Below are positions 303 through 9,040 of a DNA stretch of 9,600 nucleotides, piece by piece. The notes under the pieces were generated by a model that made no database searches, had not been told where the DNA came from, and saw nothing but the letters and a program-made list of their open reading frames with translations. The DNA lies in NCBI GenBank assembly GCA_020061125.1, contig JAGUYV010000110.1, positions 1 through 9,600 on the forward strand, in the 5' to 3' direction. The stretch is from a bacterium (GTDB lineage Bacteria; UBP15; UBA6099; DSWB01). A program made the translations under genes and the position numbers. Numbering within the stretch: position 1 is the stretch's first letter; each line of letters opens with the position of its first letter.

Positions 303-433
303 ATTAGGGCAAAGAATACCGCGGAGGCGCGGAGGGGCGGAGGGGGGCACTGGCGCGGGGCGGCGGCGGGGGTTATGATATGCTCTGGGCGCGGCGGCGG
401 GCCGCGCTATCTTGGCTCGGACGGGCGCGCGCT

Positions 434-1027
434 ATGGATCTTTTGGATAATCTGCTCAAGGCGTTCATTCCGATGTTCGTGGCCGTGGATCTGATCGGGG
501 TGGTGCCGTTCTTCCTGGGGGTGACTTCGGGCATGGATGCGCGGCGGCGCGCGCGCCTGGTGCGCCAGAGCGTGGCTACGGCGTCTCTGATCGCTATCGC
601 GTTCGTGTTCGCGGGCCGGGCGCTGTTCGCGTTCATGGGCATTTCGATCAGCGATTTCATGATCGCGGGCGGGGCGGTGCTGTTCATTATTTCGGTGTCG
701 GACCTGGTGTCCCACGGCAAGGAGGAGGCGGCGCCGGATATGAGCGTGGGGGTGGTGCCGCTGGGTACGCCGCTGCTGGCGGGTCCGGCGGTGCTGGCCA
801 CGGCGGTGATTCTGCTGGGAAATTACGGGGTGCTGGCCACGGTGCTGTCGGTGGTGATCAATCTGTTTCTGGCCGGGCTGGCGTTCCATTATTCGCATGT
901 GATTGTGCGGGTGCTGGGCCGCAGCGGTTCGCGGGCGTTTTCCAAGATTATGCAGCTTGTGCTGGCGGCGTACGGGATTATGATGATCCGCCAGGGCCTT
1001 GTGAATCTGATTAAGGATTTTTCCTAA
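434..1027 (+). CDS. MarC-family integral membrane protein
   Basis: A 197-residue hydrophobic protein of the MarC (UPF0056) family, located in the inner membrane. The biochemical function of this family is unsettled; despite the name, a role in multiple antibiotic resistance is not supported. About six hydrophobic segments are visible. Two half-helix motifs typical of the family occur: 'FVAVDLIGVVPFF' at residues 15-27, where the usual Asp-Pro is Asp19-Leu20, and 'PLGTPLLAGPAV' at 109-120, where the usual AGPG is AGPA. I chose ATG 434 because the family begins with this M-D-L motif just before the first helix; an ATG at 380 would add 18 Arg-rich residues not seen in the family, although a G-run lies upstream of it. 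The gene precedes the glycosylase by 18 bases, probably as one transcript. Codon use leans to G- and T-ending codons. Confidence 0.88.
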   Translation: MDLLDNLLKAFIPMFVAVDLIGVVPFFLGVTSGMDARRRARLVRQSVATASLIAIAFVFAGRALFAFMGISISDFMIAGGAVLFIISVSDLVSHGKEEAAPDMSVGVVPLGTPLLAGPAVLATAVILLGNYGVLATVLSVVINLFLAGLAFHYSHVIVRVLGRSGSRAFSKIMQLVLAAYGIMMIRQGLVNLIKDFS

Positions 1028-1045
1028 TTTTCCCACGGGTTTGCG

Positions 1046-1735
1046 ATGATGGGTATCCAATCCAACGGTGAGCCGCCGGGCGCGGCGCTGATGGCGCTGT
1101 ACGAGGCGTCGTTTGCGGCGGTGGGGCCGCTGCACTGGTGGCCGGGCCGCACGCGGTTCGAGGTGTGCGTGGGGGCGATTCTCACGCAGAATACGGCGTG
1201 GCGCAATGTGAAGCGGGCCATTGACAATCTCAAGCGGGCGCGCGTGCTCTCGCCCCGGGCTATGCGCGATATCCCCCAGCAGGAGCTTGCGCAGCTTATC
1301 GTGCCTTCGGGCTATTACAACATGAAGGCGGGCAAGCTCAAGAATTTTGTGAATATGCTGTTCGACGGGTACGGGGGCAGCCTGGACAGGCTGTTTGCGC
1401 GGGACCGCATGGAGCTGCGCGAAATTCTGCTCGGGGTGAACGGTATCGGCAAAGAGACCGCGGATTCGATGGTTCTGTATGCGGCGGGCAAGCCGATTTT
1501 CGTGATAGATGCGTATACGAGGCGGATTTTGTCGCGGCACGGGCTGGCGCGCGCGGATGCGGATTACGACGAGCTGCGCCTTTTGTTCGAGGACAATCTG
1601 CCCGCGGACGCGCGGCTGTTCAATGAGTACCACGCGCAGATTGTGTTCGTGGGGCATCATTATTGCAAGAAGACGCCGCAGTGCGGGGCGTGTCCGCTGG
1701 GCGCGCTGCTGCCCCCCGGCGGCCCGGCGGCCTGA
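1046..1735 (+). CDS. Endonuclease III-like DNA glycosylase (COG2231/MagIII type)
   Basis: A 229-residue HhH-GPD base-excision repair protein. The N-terminal WWPG (31-34) and 'FEVCVGAILTQNTAW' (38-52) match the endonuclease III-related family that includes Helicobacter MagIII, a 3-methyladenine DNA glycosylase. The helix-hairpin-helix is 'LLGVNGIGKETADS' (128-141), and the catalytic Asp is D155 in VIDAYT. The lysine that gives classical endonuclease III its lyase activity is Glu137 here, so a monofunctional glycosylase is likely; the substrate cannot be read from sequence. The C-terminus carries C207-x5-C213-x2-C216 of a [4Fe-4S] motif, but the expected fourth cysteine at 222 is Leu. A one-base shift near 1706-1709 would put a Cys codon (1710-1712) exactly there, so this end may be frameshifted. 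The start is ATG 1046 or 1049, with a weak ribosome site. Confidence 0.88.
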   Translation: MMGIQSNGEPPGAALMALYEASFAAVGPLHWWPGRTRFEVCVGAILTQNTAWRNVKRAIDNLKRARVLSPRAMRDIPQQELAQLIVPSGYYNMKAGKLKNFVNMLFDGYGGSLDRLFARDRMELREILLGVNGIGKETADSMVLYAAGKPIFVIDAYTRRILSRHGLARADADYDELRLLFEDNLPADARLFNEYHAQIVFVGHHYCKKTPQCGACPLGALLPPGGPAA

Positions 1736-2094: not shown

Positions 2095-2517
2095 ATGAGC
2101 GATACAAAAACAATACTAATAGTGGACGACGAGCCTGACATCCTGTTCTTTTTCACCCTTACGCTGGAGCAGGAGGGCTACACCGTGATATCGGCCGGAA
2201 ACGCGGACGACGCCATCCGCAGGGCGCGCGAGGCGTTGCCGGATCTCATCTGCCTTGATATCATGATGCCAAGGAAGTCCGGCCTGGCATGTTACAAAAC
2301 CCTCAAGCAGTTCCCGGAACTGCGCGGCACGCCGGTGCTGATCGTGAGCGCGTTCGGCCAGCCCCAGGATTTCAAGGGCGAGCGGTTCCGCACCATCATC
2401 CAGGACCCGGACATTCCCGAGCCGAGCGGCTACCTGGAAAAACCCGTGAAAGCGCCGCACTTCGCGGCCGTGATCCGGAGCCTCATCGGCCCCCCGGAGA
2501 AAGAGAGCGGCTCATGA
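2095..2517 (+). CDS. Receiver-only response regulator
   Basis: A 140-residue protein that is a single CheY-like receiver with no output domain. The acidic pocket D11-D12-E13, phospho-acceptor D55 (in CLDIMMP), switch residue S85 and K116 (in LEKPV) are all present. About 30 residues separate S85 from K116, where a CheY-type receiver has roughly 20. The extra stretch (about 89-110, 'QDFKGERFRTIIQDPDIPEP') lies in the beta4-alpha4 to beta5 region that usually contacts partners. The start at ATG 2095 gives the standard receiver N-terminus just before the first beta strand. The ribosome site is weak (GAGA about 8 bases upstream). The stop overlaps the kinase start in ATGA, so the two are translationally coupled and D55 is probably phosphorylated by that kinase. 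With no DNA-binding part, it presumably acts through protein contacts or a phosphorelay. Confidence 0.92.
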   Translation: MSDTKTILIVDDEPDILFFFTLTLEQEGYTVISAGNADDAIRRAREALPDLICLDIMMPRKSGLACYKTLKQFPELRGTPVLIVSAFGQPQDFKGERFRTIIQDPDIPEPSGYLEKPVKAPHFAAVIRSLIGPPEKESGS

Positions 2518-4328
2518 GCCAGTCCGACCTGCACACCTGGTTTCTGTCCGAACTCTTCGATCAGATCCCCATGAAAATCGCGGTGATAAACCGCGACCTG
2601 AAAATTGTGCGCGCGAACCGGCATTTCACGGAAGTATTCGGGGACTGGAGCGGGCGGCGCTGCTACGATGTGTACAAGGACCGCGCCTCGCGGTGCGAAC
2701 ACTGCAACGCGGAACGCGCGTTCACCGAGGGCATAAGCTGCGTGTCCCGCGAGTACATGACAGACAAGGAAGGGGCCACGCACTACTATCTGGTGCATAT
2801 GACCCCGCTGCGCACCGATGACGGAAACATCCCGTTCATCGTGGAAATCGCCATAGATGTCAGCCAGATCGTGAATGTGCAGCAGGAATACGAGTTGCTG
2901 TTCGACAGCGTTCCGAATTACATCACCATCCTGGACCGGGACCTGCGCGTGGTGCAGGCCAACCGTGCGTTTCGCGAGGTGTTCGGCAACTCGGTAGGGG
3001 GCGCGGCCGGCGATTTCTGCTACCGCAAATACAAGCAGCAGGACAGCCCGTGCGGCAACTGCCCGGCGCTCAAGGCGTTTGAGACCGGCAAGGTCAACAC
3101 CGCCACCATGAAGGGCCTGGATAAAAACAAGGAAGCCGTGCACTATGTGGTCACGGCCTCGCCGCTCACCAACGACCGGGGCGAAGTGGTCAATGTGATG
3201 GAGATCGCCACGGACATCACCCTTGTGCGCACGCTCGAAGCCCAGCTCGAACAGGCCTTCAAGCTGCAGGAAACCGCCATCGCCAGCTCGTTCGACGGCA
3301 TGATCATCGCCGGCCCGCACGGCGGCATTCTGCTCTTCAACAAGTCCGCCGAGGACATCACCGGATACGCCTCCGGCGACATCCGCGTGTTCGACGACCT
3401 GCGCGCCATCTTCCCCGAGAATTTTCTGTGGGCCATCTGGGACGAGCAGGGGTCGTGCGTGCTGCCCGACGCGACGATCCAGTCCAAGAGCGGCGAACCC
3501 GTGCCCGTGCGCCTGTCCGGCACCATATTGAAAAACGGCAACGGAGTGTTCGGGTCCGCGATATACATACACGACCTGCGCAAGATCAAGCAGCTCGAGA
3601 GCGAGAAGCTGGTGGCCGAGCGACTGGCGGCCGTGGGACAGACCGTGGCCGGGCTTGCGCACGGCATCAAGAACATCCTCACCGGGCTGGAGGGCGGGCT
3701 GTTCGTGATGAACTCCGGCCTGCGCAAAGCCGATGTGGACATGATCCACAAAGGCCTGTCCATGCTGGAGAGCAACATCGAGCGCATCACGCATTTCGTC
3801 AAGGAATTCTTGAGCTTCGCGCGGGGCCGCGAGCCGTCCGTGCGCCTAGCCGACCCCGCGGCGCCCGCGCACGAAATCGTGGAGCTGTACAAAGACGCCG
3901 CGAAAAAGGAAGGAGTGCGCCTGGACGCCAGCGTGCCCGAGTCCCTGCCGCCCGCGCCCATAGACCCCGACGGCATTCACACCTGCCTGGCCAATCTGGT
4001 GTCCAACGCCATTGACGCCTGCCTCATGAGCGACAACACGGACCACGCGGTCACCTTCAAGGTCTGGGAGAGGGATGGCGTGATCTGCTATGAAGTTTCG
4101 GACAACGGCATCGGCATGGATTACGAGGTCAAGAAAAAGCTGTTCACCAGTTTTTTCAGCACCAAAGGCTCGCACGAAGGCACGGGCCTGGGGCTGCTGG
4201 TGACGCGCAAAATCATACAGGAGCACGGGGGCCGCATTACCTTCGATTCCGCGGAAGGGCGGGGCGCCACATTCCGCATCGAACTGGACCGCGCGCGCCT
4301 GCCCGCGCCGCCGCAACACCAGGAATGA
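2514..4328 (+). CDS. Soluble PAS-PAS-PAS sensor histidine kinase with Cys-rich PAS domains
   Basis: A 604-residue kinase with no membrane segment, so cytoplasmic. PAS1 (about 10-118) and PAS2 (about 125-240) are diverged copies. Both carry C-Y-x2-Y-K followed by C-x2-C at identical spacing (C50, C61, C64 and C169, C180, C183). PAS3 (about 250-362) lacks these cysteines. A short helix leads to the phospho-acceptor H383 in 'GLAHGIKNILTGLEGG', a variant H-box seen in many Desulfobacterota kinases. The ATPase domain has an N-box (NLVSNAIDAC, 494-503), G1 (DNGIGMD, 530-536), an F-box ('FTSFFSTKG') and G2 (GTGLGL, 556-561). All catalytic motifs are intact. The start ATG overlaps the upstream regulator's stop. 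The cysteines could bind a metal or cluster, or form a thiol switch; which of these is unknown. Confidence 0.93.
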   Translation: MSQSDLHTWFLSELFDQIPMKIAVINRDLKIVRANRHFTEVFGDWSGRRCYDVYKDRASRCEHCNAERAFTEGISCVSREYMTDKEGATHYYLVHMTPLRTDDGNIPFIVEIAIDVSQIVNVQQEYELLFDSVPNYITILDRDLRVVQANRAFREVFGNSVGGAAGDFCYRKYKQQDSPCGNCPALKAFETGKVNTATMKGLDKNKEAVHYVVTASPLTNDRGEVVNVMEIATDITLVRTLEAQLEQAFKLQETAIASSFDGMIIAGPHGGILLFNKSAEDITGYASGDIRVFDDLRAIFPENFLWAIWDEQGSCVLPDATIQSKSGEPVPVRLSGTILKNGNGVFGSAIYIHDLRKIKQLESEKLVAERLAAVGQTVAGLAHGIKNILTGLEGGLFVMNSGLRKADVDMIHKGLSMLESNIERITHFVKEFLSFARGREPSVRLADPAAPAHEIVELYKDAAKKEGVRLDASVPESLPPAPIDPDGIHTCLANLVSNAIDACLMSDNTDHAVTFKVWERDGVICYEVSDNGIGMDYEVKKKLFTSFFSTKGSHEGTGLGLLVTRKIIQEHGGRITFDSAEGRGATFRIELDRARLPAPPQHQE

Positions 4329-4332
4329 GGAG

Positions 4333-4378
4333 CGAAAACCGCAAATCCTAGCCGTTTTCGTGAATTAGTTTTCAAACT
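4333..4378 (+). other. Inverted repeats between kinase and second regulator
   Basis: CGAAAAC (4333-4339) is mirrored by GTTTTCG (4354-4360) around a 14-base loop. A compact palindrome, AGTTT-TC-AAACT, follows at 4367-4378. No T-tract follows the first hairpin, so it is at best a weak terminator for the kinase transcript. The second, lying about 33 bases upstream of the next promoter, could be an operator. Confidence 0.35.
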
Positions 4379-4410
4379 GAATCTATAGGCAATCCCGCGT
4401 CCGGGCAGGT

Positions 4411-4440
4411 TTGACAACCATTATCAGATTTATGTATAAC
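4411..4440 (+). promoter_or_regulatory. Strong sigma-70 promoter of the second response regulator
   Basis: A perfect -35 TTGACA (4411-4416) is followed by an 18-base spacer and TATAAC (4435-4440). The local sequence is AT-rich compared with the surroundings. The predicted start is near 4447, about 43 bases before the gene. This means the second receiver can be expressed apart from the kinase operon. Confidence 0.75.
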
Positions 4441-4475
4441 GGAAGTGTGGAAATCGTGAAAGGTGGAATTCTCAC

Positions 4476-4481
4476 AAGGAG
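4476..4481 (+). promoter_or_regulatory. Consensus Shine-Dalgarno of the second response regulator
   Basis: AAGGAG ends 8 bases before ATG 4490 and fixes that start over the in-frame ATG at 4463. It is the best ribosome site in the window; the other genes have weak sites or rely on coupling. Confidence 0.85.
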
Positions 4482-4489
4482 ACAGAATC

Positions 4490-5005
4490 ATGACAAGTCC
4501 CGCAGACAAAACCATCCTGGTGGTGGATGACGAACCCGATGTGCGGACATACCTCGAAGTGGCGCTCAAGGACGCCGGGTTTAATGTGATCACGGCGCAG
4601 GACGGCCTCGACGCCCTGGAGCGGCTCAAAGAAACAGTTCCCGACCTCATCTCACTGGACCTGGTCATGCCGCGCAAAACCGGCAACAAGTTCCTCTACG
4701 AGATGAGAAAAAACAAGGAATGGTCGTGCATTCCCGTGCTGATCGTCACCGCTCACAGCCGGGACGAAATGGGCAAGGGCGATCTGGACGAGATCATGCA
4801 GAACATGACCCTGTCCGGACCGGGCGTGATCGAGAAGCCGGTGAACGCGCACAAGTATGTCAACGCAATCAAAACCATTCTGAACATCGAAATTGCGGAC
4901 GAAGCCGAGGACCCCGTGGCCATGAAGCAGGCGTTGCAGGAAAAGCTCATGAGCGCGGACAAGGAAACGCTCAAGAAAGCGCTCGAAGCGTTCGGCAAGA
5001 AATAA
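4490..5005 (+). CDS. Response regulator: receiver with short C-terminal helical tail
   Basis: A 171-residue CheY-like receiver. It shows D13-D14-E15, phospho-acceptor D57 (SLDLVMP), switch T87 (VTAHS) and K116 (IEKPV). As in the first regulator of this cluster, the T87-K116 interval is lengthened (about 90-112, 'RDEMGKGDLDEIMQNMTLSG'), and both share the PRK(S/T)G signature after the acceptor. So the two are probably paralogues of one receiver subfamily. Residues about 130-171 form an acidic/lysine-rich, likely helical tail with no recognised DNA-binding motif. The start is set by the AAGGAG site. The gene follows the kinase by 161 bases but has its own strong promoter, and it ends at a strong terminator. 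It may be a second target of the kinase or answer to another one. Confidence 0.92.
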   Translation: MTSPADKTILVVDDEPDVRTYLEVALKDAGFNVITAQDGLDALERLKETVPDLISLDLVMPRKTGNKFLYEMRKNKEWSCIPVLIVTAHSRDEMGKGDLDEIMQNMTLSGPGVIEKPVNAHKYVNAIKTILNIEIADEAEDPVAMKQALQEKLMSADKETLKKALEAFGKK

Positions 5006-5084: not shown

Positions 5085-6914
5085 TCATTTGAACGAGTGG
5101 CACTCGGAGCAGTCCATGTCCATGGTGTGCTCCGCGTTGATGGATGCGTGGCAGGACAGGCACTTGGCCGGGAGCTGATGCCAGGTGTGGGGCAGATGGC
5201 AGCCCTGGCAGTCCAGGCCGCCGTGCGCCTTGTGCATGTCCGAGCCGGCCGTGGATTTGTGGCACGAGTAGCAGGCCTCGGGCTTGAGTTTCGAGGGCCG
5301 CTGCAGCGATTCGTGGCAATTGCCGCATACGGCGTGGCCCTTGAGCTTCATATCCGAATGGCATCTGACGCAGGCGTCAAGCTCGTGGCACGAGGTGCAG
5401 GACTTGAAGCTCTGATTGGCGGTGTTGTGTTCGAGCATCCAGCCCGCGGCCTTGTGGGTTTTGCCCTGTTCGTGGCAGCGGCGGCAGTCGGCGTTCACAT
5501 GGCACACGAAGCAATTGCTCATGTCATAGGTGGCGACCTGCCCGTGCGTGTCGTTCCATTGCTTCATATAGTGGTCGGGCGGGCGCGTGCGCTTGTGGCA
5601 TGCGTTGCAGTATTGATCCTCGTGGCAGAGGCTGCAGTTGCGGTCCTTGTCGCGGCTGCCCTGGGCGTGCTGCGCGCCCCAGTTGGCCTGCTGGTGCGAC
5701 AGGGGCAGCTTGTGCTTGTGGCACGATTCGCAGAATTCGTCGGCGTGGCACATGGAGCACGAGTCCATGTTGCGGATGGCGCTGATGCCGTGCTGTTTCT
5801 TCCAGGCGTCCGCGGGCTTGTGCGTGGCCGGCAGGTTGTCGCTGTGGCAGGTGTTGCAGGAGTCCCGCGTGTGGCACTTGAGGCAGGTGGGCATGGCGTC
5901 CCGCTTCACATTGGTGTGCATTTCGTTGAAATCCGAAGAATGGATGCGCGCGTTGAGGCCCTTGTGGCAGGACAGGCAGAAGCCGGGCTGGTGGCAGTCT
6001 ATGCAGGTCTCGAGGTCGCCGCCCTTGCCCGCGTCCCGCGCGTTGATTTCAACGCCATGGTGCGAGAGCCAGTTGCCCTCGTGGTGCAGCTTGCTCTTGC
6101 CCTCGTGGCAGTCGTTGCAGTATTTTTCGGTGTGGCACGAGGAGCATTCCTGGTGCTGGACGGCTTCGGCCCCGGTTCTGTGCTTTTTGTTCCAGCCTTT
6201 TTCGTGCAGGGTGAAGCCGTCGTGGCACGAGTCACAGAAATCCTGTGCGTGGCAGCGGCTGCACACGGGCGCGCTTTCCGCGGCCATGATGCGGTGCCCG
6301 TCGTACCAGTCTTCCTTGTGTTCTTCCATAATGCCGTGGCAGTCCGCGCAGGATTGGAACGAGTGGCATGCCTGGCACTCGCGGGTTCCCTTGCGTCCCT
6401 TGACGCGGTGCACATTGAGCCAGTTGCCCGAGTGCGGGTTGATGGTGTGGGGCTTGTGGCAGTCGTAGCATTTTTTCCGCGACTCGGGCAGGGAATACTC
6501 CACGCGCTTGCCGTGCGTGACCAGCATATGGCATGTCTCGCAGCTTGACGCTTCCTGGTGATCCTTGTGCGGAAATTCGAGGTTTTCGATTTTGACCACA
6601 TCGGACATGTCTTCATGGCAACTGATGCAGCCCCTGGAGACCGCCGGTTTCTTTCCGGCGGCAGAACTGCGGGTAAGCGCCGCGGAAATCATTTTGCGTC
6701 CCGAAGGCGCCTGGTAGTGGCATTTGTCGCAGGTGACGTCCCTGTGAGTGGACAGGCGCCAGGTCTGGTACGCTTCTCGCATCTGGTGGCAGAGCAGGCA
6801 CGTTGGGCCGGGCCGCCTTGCGTTCAATGCGAACGGAGCGGCGAAGACCAGAACGAGCACAAGCGCGGCCACGGGCAGGGCGATGCGCAGCGTTTTGTTC
6901 GTTCCGGTCTTCAT
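5085..6914 (-). CDS. 28-haem periplasmic cytochrome c (Hmc-like multihaem protein)
   Basis: A 609-residue protein with 28 CxxCH haem-binding motifs, counted one by one. Residues 10-31 are a hydrophobic signal or anchor; cleavage after LNA-32 is possible. Right after it, C39-x2-CH-x-M, Y49, W52, S55-x-H57 and C62-x2-CH copy the NapC/NrfH haem-1/2 pattern, suggesting a quinol- or membrane-proximal haem pair. Haems 3-5 follow (C96, C125, C149). Residues 180-505 are eight tandem di-haem modules, then a degenerate ninth (506-519) and a C-terminal cluster (C530, C548, C569, C585, C602). Extra histidines suffice for bis-His ligation of the modules. The start overlaps nothing and lies 2 bases after the NrfD-family stop, without a Shine-Dalgarno, so translation is probably coupled. 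Compare HmcA of Desulfovibrio, which has 16 haems. The likely role is electron transfer between the membrane module and periplasmic or outer partners. Confidence 0.94.
   Translation of the reverse strand: MKTGTNKTLRIALPVAALVLVLVFAAPFALNARRPGPTCLLCHQMREAYQTWRLSTHRDVTCDKCHYQAPSGRKMISAALTRSSAAGKKPAVSRGCISCHEDMSDVVKIENLEFPHKDHQEASSCETCHMLVTHGKRVEYSLPESRKKCYDCHKPHTINPHSGNWLNVHRVKGRKGTRECQACHSFQSCADCHGIMEEHKEDWYDGHRIMAAESAPVCSRCHAQDFCDSCHDGFTLHEKGWNKKHRTGAEAVQHQECSSCHTEKYCNDCHEGKSKLHHEGNWLSHHGVEINARDAGKGGDLETCIDCHQPGFCLSCHKGLNARIHSSDFNEMHTNVKRDAMPTCLKCHTRDSCNTCHSDNLPATHKPADAWKKQHGISAIRNMDSCSMCHADEFCESCHKHKLPLSHQQANWGAQHAQGSRDKDRNCSLCHEDQYCNACHKRTRPPDHYMKQWNDTHGQVATYDMSNCFVCHVNADCRRCHEQGKTHKAAGWMLEHNTANQSFKSCTSCHELDACVRCHSDMKLKGHAVCGNCHESLQRPSKLKPEACYSCHKSTAGSDMHKAHGGLDCQGCHLPHTWHQLPAKCLSCHASINAEHTMDMDCSECHSFK
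5400..6377 (-). repeat. Eight tandem di-haem modules inside the cytochrome
   Basis: Modules begin at residues 180, 218, 257, 304, 344, 386, 427 and 468, with lengths 38, 39, 47, 40, 42, 41, 41 and 38. Each reads CxxCH-x4-CxxCH, then 5-8 residues, His, 3-6 residues, Trp (Phe in the fourth), three residues and His. The DNA copies have diverged: no long identical stretches are apparent. The two non-motif histidines per module (for example H199/H207, H237/H245, H448/H457) are natural distal haem ligands. Confidence 0.9.
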
Positions 6915-8146: not shown

Positions 8147-9040
8147 TCAGTCTGTTTTCTCTTGGGCGTCAGGCTCCTGCGGTTGCGCGGATTCCTGTTC
8201 GTTCGCATGGGCGGTTTTCCCGCGCTCTTCGCGCACGCGCTCCAGCCGCCGGTTCACGATCCATGTGACTCCGGCCATGAGCACCCCGGCCAGCACCACG
8301 ATGTCCGGCAGGCGGTGCAGCACATTCCAGGTGAGGATGGGCAGGGGTTCGTCGCGGAATGCCGGAAGGAACGGAATGTTCTCAAAAGGAACCGCGGACA
8401 GGTACATGGTGCCCGTGCCCCCGAGTTCGTGTTCGCCGTAAATGTAGGGGTGGTACTTGTCCGGGTTGTCCTGGATGCGTTTGCGGGCCAGGGCGATGAG
8501 GTCCTTGCGTTTGCCCATAATCGTGGCGCCGTACGCGCATGCCTGGGCGCAGCCCGTGAGCTTGCCCTGGGACACCCGTTTTTCGTAGCACATGTAGCAT
8601 TTTTCCACGCGCGGCGTCATGGAGTCCCATTCGTATGTCGGGATGCCGAAGGGGCACGCCATCATGCAGTAGCGGCACCCGATGCAGCGGTCCTCGTCGT
8701 AGATCACCGGCCCGAGCGCGGTTTTCTGGAGCGCCGCCACCGGGCACACGGATTCGCAGGCGGGCTTCACGCAGTGCATGCACAGGCGCCGCACGAAGGC
8801 GTCCCCGATTTTTTTCACAACCGTGTATGTATCTTTGTTGAGGTCTTCGTCGTTGCGGTTGGGAAGCTCGTTTACTTCCTTGCACGCCATGAAGCAGGCC
8901 ATGCATCCGGTGCAGCGCACGGTGTCAATCAGCAAACCCATATAGTCGTCCGGGTCCGTTTGATGGTGCGCGTGCGGGGACAGGCCGAAGGTTTTTTTGT
9001 TGTTCTTGCCGTCAGACAATGGTTCGGGGCCGCGGCGCAT
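8147..9040 (-). CDS. Four-cluster ferredoxin subunit with C-terminal membrane helix (HmcB/HybA-like)
   Basis: A 297-residue electron-transfer protein with 16 cysteines in four motifs: C43-x2-C-x2-C-x3-C53, C87-x2-C-x4-C-x3-C99, C119-x2-C-x2-C-x3-C129 and C148-x2-C-x12-C-x3-C168. Together these suggest four [4Fe-4S] clusters, as in HmcB, HybA and NrfC. One hydrophobic segment (about 246-262) lies near the C-terminus and is followed by NRRLERVREER and a polar tail. The start is uncertain. ATG 9040 adds 33 polar residues with RR but no hydrophobic core, so this is not a convincing Tat signal. ATG 8941 gives the usual family opening MGLLIDT-x-RC. Neither has a good Shine-Dalgarno. It lies 6 bases after the GcvH-like gene if 9040 is used. 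It likely bridges the NrfD-type subunit and a redox partner. Confidence 0.92.
   Translation of the reverse strand: MRRGPEPLSDGKNNKKTFGLSPHAHHQTDPDDYMGLLIDTVRCTGCMACFMACKEVNELPNRNDEDLNKDTYTVVKKIGDAFVRRLCMHCVKPACESVCPVAALQKTALGPVIYDEDRCIGCRYCMMACPFGIPTYEWDSMTPRVEKCYMCYEKRVSQGKLTGCAQACAYGATIMGKRKDLIALARKRIQDNPDKYHPYIYGEHELGGTGTMYLSAVPFENIPFLPAFRDEPLPILTWNVLHRLPDIVVLAGVLMAGVTWIVNRRLERVREERGKTAHANEQESAQPQEPDAQEKTD

Follow-up and report, generated by a model that had tools for sequence, protein, structure and literature searches.

Genes of the locus

Four genes on the minus strand of the window, by which we mean the whole 9,600-nucleotide stretch analysed and which is an entire contig, follow one another in the order GcvH-like, 4Fe-4S, NrfD-type and cytochrome, with gaps of 6, 12 and 2 bases (Table 1). 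The cytochrome gene is the last of this cluster. On the 3' side lies a convergent response regulator, and on the 5' side the contig ends within the GcvH gene; hmcD, hmcE and hmcF were sought beside the cluster, where the 5' view stops inside that gene. The plus strand carries a response regulator, a PAS histidine kinase and a second response regulator (2095-5005), which converge on the cytochrome operon; the best match of the second regulator is the DVU0259 family, under the cut-off. Apparently unrelated to the redox genes are those at 380-1735 (plus strand), which by eye encode a MarC-like membrane protein and an endonuclease III-like one.

Table 1. Coordinates of the cytochrome, its parts and the genes beside it
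Feature	Positions	Strand	Basis
28-haem cytochrome c, 609 aa	5085..6914	-	CxxCH motif reading
Residues 1-77, uncleaved membrane helix and NapC/NrfH-like haem pair, CxxCHxM (M45)	6684..6914	-	
Residues 96-179, c7/c3-like haems 3-5 and half-unit H..W..H	6378..6629	-	
Residues 180-505, eight full di-haem modules CxxCH-x4-CxxCH...H...W/F...H, 16 haems	5400..6377	-	
Residues 506-529, ninth di-haem pair, truncated	5328..5399	-	
Residues 530-609 and stop codon, C-terminal part, five further haems	5085..5327	-	
NrfD-family membrane subunit, HybB/HmcC type, 10 predicted helices	6917..8134	-	Pfam NrfD
HybA/HmcB-like 4Fe-4S protein, C-terminal membrane helix, no Tat signal	8147..9040	-	
GcvH-like protein, cut by contig end	9047..9598	-	Pfam GCV_H, 63.2 bits

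The NrfD protein is nearest to the HmcC and HybB models, in each case under the cut-off (HmcC, NCBIfam, 331.8 bits against 550), and has 10 hydropathy peaks. In an alignment, residues R89, Y99, E148 and H184 of HybB are kept as R93, Y103, E150 and H186; mutating any of these HybB residues impairs H2 oxidation in Hyd-2 (PMC8076601). QrcD has been shown to be electrogenic with menaquinone, and the same has been proposed for HybB and HmcC (PMC6303296). The conserved partners of the closest NrfD relatives (47-56% identity) are GcvH-like genes, and this type of cytochrome is absent from their clusters.

The FeS protein scores 244 bits against the HmcB model, under the cut-off of 420. Positive charges come after its tail helix (240-258 by hydropathy), an arrangement shared with exported HybA. 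Ahead of its first FeS motif there is no twin-arginine signal of the sort present in E. coli HybA. Likewise, the 10 closest FeS relatives keep the tail helix and have no Tat signal, though such a signal does occur more widely in the family. A tail-anchored FeS protein without a signal has already been described, and co-export with a partner is its presumed route (PMC10924467).

At the position of the lipoyl-lysine, the GcvH-like protein has Glu and its relatives have Lys, Arg or others (alignment with E. coli GcvH), and several relatives start with a hydrophobic, helix-like stretch when read by eye. GcvH-like genes stand beside FeS-NrfD pairs in many lineages (L035-L043), up to three of them in tandem in L037 and L038; the FeS proteins encoded with them are likewise free of Tat signals, and the aligned GcvH-like proteins do not conserve the lipoyl-lysine. 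Those of L039 and L040 bear a response-regulator receiver. Elsewhere (L045, L047, L054), NrfD-like frames 600-650 aa long, each containing six CxxCH motifs, are apparently NrfD fused to a multihaem domain.

A 28-haem cytochrome with an NrfH-like head

Direct counting confirmed the 28 CxxCH motifs originally predicted in the 609 residues of the cytochrome; composition-preserving shuffles give a mean of 0.5 and a maximum of 4 (2000 trials). All 56 cysteines lie within the motifs, as do 28 of the 61 histidines, leaving 33 outside. Residues 113-185 match Pfam Cytochrome_C7 (61.8 bits).

The N-terminus forms a membrane helix at residues 7-33 (hydropathy and AF2 helix), with no lipobox and no obvious cleavage site by eye. 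The NapC/NrfH-like haem pair expected at this membrane end was recovered by phmmer, in which NrfH 2j7a matches the head at E=2e-5 and M45 aligns with M49 of CxxCHxM, a methionine that we take to be the haem-1 ligand in NrfH. TIGR03153 also matches residues 14-77, with 31.4 bits, under its cut-off of 134.2. The N-terminal helix and CxxCHxM head are like those of the NrfH/NapC quinol dehydrogenases, a likeness limited to the first 60-150 residues. An alignment with six other cytochromes outlined a head pattern (helix, CxxCHxM or near, SxH-CxxCH, CxxCH, H..H, CxxCH, CxxCH) that is common to cytochromes of an Actinomycetota MAG, of Aquicultor and of paralogues in the same genome.

An array of di-haem modules

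The stretch that the original prediction singled out is exactly residues 180-505, and the gene itself reaches far past it. As predicted, it holds eight tandem units of about 40 residues (38-47 aa, starting at residues 180, 218, 257, 304, 344, 386, 427 and 468). Each consists of CxxCH-x4-CxxCH and at least two non-motif histidines flanking a tryptophan (a phenylalanine in unit 4), so that the spare histidines anticipated for bis-His ligation are present in every two-haem unit. The array is preceded by a half-unit (residues 149-179) and followed by a ninth CxxCH-x4-CxxCH pair (506-529) that is without the H..W..H part; two-thirds of the haems of the cytochrome sit in this row of repeated two-haem units. 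The nine 9-residue CxxCH spacings exceed those of random placement (mean 1.3, maximum 8, 5000 trials).

With CxxCH masked, the units remain alike, scoring 11.1 against -0.7 +/- 1.2 for shuffled units, which supports their descent from a common ancestor. Growth of the array by unit duplication had also been proposed, and here the evidence divides: common ancestry stands, and recent growth within this cytochrome does not. Repeats among the modules at the DNA level are short and 60-85% identical. In a poorly resolved tree of the modules, none of the proteins has its modules grouped together, and the units intermix with those of other cytochromes. The order of the modules partly matches that in a 24-haem (p=0.005) and a 22-haem (p=0.017) relative; against a 27-haem paralogue the match is not significant (p=0.25). 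Recent tandem duplication of modules was accordingly rejected, there being no strong DNA repeat and no grouping of modules by protein. Because the DNA repeats are short and diverged, the modules do not cluster by protein and their order is partly shared with relatives, the array appears from these comparisons to be old, and its growth by duplication is plausible yet not recent.

Structure prediction gave an AlphaFold model with pLDDT 40.4 and pTM 0.18 for the full-length cytochrome. A 138-residue fragment of 3.5 modules reached pLDDT 60.7 and pTM 0.34, with a like three-helix pattern in every module, and found no match among solved structures (Foldseek, VIA).

Distribution of the module

Across 61 genomes, the best matches beyond the same genome come from the same order and have 24 haems (one protein) or 22 (several). 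The same genome encodes an array cytochrome of 27 haems, whose gene lies in the region of rnfA, and a second 28-haem cytochrome, in which fewer di-haem modules give way to c7-like spacing. More distant relatives have 10 and 12 haems (Aquicultor, an unidentified bacterium and Methanoperedens) or 22 (the Actinomycetota MAG). In a scan of 386 genomes, cytochromes of about 300 aa, mostly with 10-14 haems and 2-4 module pairs, appeared in about 15 others. The scan of genome contigs returned no matches with the single cytochrome sequence and nine loci with an alignment; that of viral contigs returned no relatives. The comparison of repeat number proposed earlier thus places the CxxCH-x4-CxxCH-H-W-H module in 22-, 24- and 27-haem cytochromes of the same order and, in 2-4 copies, in those of about 300 aa. 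Cytochromes sharing this module differ in copy number, head and gene neighbours, with Rnf near the 22- and 27-haem proteins. The array is not unique, and its origin is not recent.

The 22- and 27-haem array cytochromes adjoin or share a gene region with Rnf genes (L029-L032 in the same order, L026 in the same genome). This suggests that bacteria have a haem conduit linked to Rnf, recalling the Rnf-associated cytochrome of Methanosarcina. Another locus of the same genome (L027, contig C512) encodes a Rieske-type protein together with cytochromes that have about 4, 9, 24, 11, 28 and 4 haems.

Comparison with known multihaem systems

The Hmc (HmcABC, with 16-haem HmcA) and Nhc (9-haem NhcA) systems likewise join a multihaem cytochrome to a tail-anchored FeS protein and a HybB-type NrfD (PMC10924467, PMC8076601), and known FeS-HybB-cytochrome modules have 8, 9 or 16 haems (PMC10924467, PMC8076601). 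Unlike them, the cluster described here has 28 haems, an NrfH-like anchored head, a Tat-less FeS protein and a GcvH-like gene. The cytochrome is larger than HmcA, as had been noted, and does not match the HmcA model NF045713 at E<=0.01, which rules out membership of that family. Geobacter GSU1996 (12 haems in four tri-haem repeats) and GSU2210 (27 haems) (PMC10138318) are similarly many-haem single chains, and GSU1996 is also built of repeated domains; however, its repeats are tri-haem c7 domains, whereas the present cytochrome has di-haem modules and a membrane anchor, and TIGR04257, which describes tri-haem repeats, has no match in it at E<=0.01. The large cytochromes of ANME, with 20-86 haem motifs, S-layer domains and archaeal hosts (PMC9012536), are comparable in their very high haem number per chain. 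Twenty-eight haems are not exceptional, given 27 in GSU2210 (PMC10138318) and up to 86 in ANME (PMC9012536). The searches made did not find elsewhere the combination of an NrfH-like head, nine di-haem modules and a GcvH-FeS-NrfD cluster, and a literature search found no publication joining a multiheme cytochrome, NrfD and GcvH. The cytochrome probably represents a known multihaem type scaled up, not a novel machine.

A putative menaquinone-linked redox module

On balance, the four genes seem to encode a redox module of the inner membrane, of the Hmc/Nhc kind, with the 28-haem cytochrome taking the place of the usual multihaem subunit and acting as conduit or capacitor. The cytochrome would then probably be a long electron wire or store, fed by the neighbouring quinone enzyme. 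We base this on the close spacing of the four genes on one strand, with gaps of 2, 12 and 6 bases, the FeS, NrfD and GcvH families of the partners and the four HybB residues kept. The NrfH-like CxxCHxM head, the spare histidines of each two-haem unit and a diderm periplasm, deduced from an Omp85 encoded in the assembly, point the same way, as do the known FeS-HybB-cytochrome modules and another genome in which FeS-NrfD genes are followed by a 4-haem and a 17-haem cytochrome, the latter with a similar N-terminal head.

Judging from its conserved residues, the HybB/HmcC-type NrfD and its tail-anchored 4Fe-4S partner may exchange electrons with menaquinone. The N-terminal helix would hold the cytochrome at the periplasmic face, possibly in a complex with this pair, and the NapC/NrfH-like head would take electrons from the FeS/NrfD pair or straight from menaquinol. 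From there the di-haem array, if its haems pack linearly, could pass or store electrons towards presumed periplasmic or outer-membrane acceptors at its far end. Four observations count against this reading. The FeS protein is without a Tat signal, which leaves its side of the membrane in doubt and allows for a cytoplasmic location; the closest NrfD clusters are without this cytochrome, which may therefore be a loose recruit; an MtrB-type porin was not found in the 79%-complete assembly; and the models (pLDDT 40 for the full length, 61 for the fragment) do not support the linear haem wire of the original prediction, for which edge distances of 3-6 angstrom between haems would be expected.

Storage and conduction are not exclusive roles, and the array might mainly store charge as a periplasmic electron capacitor of the GSU1996 class, with the NrfD module as one of several donors. 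Monomeric periplasmic haem nanowires of 12 and 27 haems have a proposed storage role (PMC10138318), and the several other large array cytochromes of the same genome could share one pool. We regard this as rather unlikely, since the membrane anchor and the NrfH-like head are more in keeping with a conduit fixed in place than with a store that diffuses.

The head could also oxidise menaquinol by itself, making the cytochrome a stand-alone quinol dehydrogenase with its own wire and the GcvH-FeS-NrfD proteins a separate complex. The same build of head and modules occurs without an evident adjacent NrfD in the Actinomycetota and Aquicultor relatives and in the Rnf-linked paralogue, and the missing cytochrome of the nearest NrfD clusters would fit as well. 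Yet 2 bases separate the stop codon of NrfD from the start codon of the cytochrome, both genes being on one strand, and the 12-haem relative of Methanoperedens is also near FeS and NrfD genes, leaving such independence doubtful.

It is very improbable that a cytoplasmic FeS protein feeds the cytochrome across the membrane via NrfD: the Tat signal is indeed absent here and from the closest relatives, in contrast to other members of the wider family, but NrfD-family proteins carry no redox cofactors (PMC6303296), and both the HybA-like positive charges after the tail helix and the co-export envisaged for signal-less proteins (PMC10924467) speak against it.

Implications

An Hmc/Nhc-kind module with this cytochrome would give the FeS-NrfD group a much larger cytochrome than before. 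More tentatively, CxxCH-x4-CxxCH-H-W-H might be an undescribed repeat family of about 2 to 9 copies, swapped between anchors (an NrfH-like head or a lipoprotein-like start) and donors (the NrfD module or Rnf), thereby giving a little-known bacterial phylum haem conduits of tunable length. Such modular wires of varied length would make the relation of repeat number to conduction and storage directly testable in one protein family. The uncultured lineage itself, whose relatives are labelled UBP15, has many large cytochromes associated with NrfD and Rnf.
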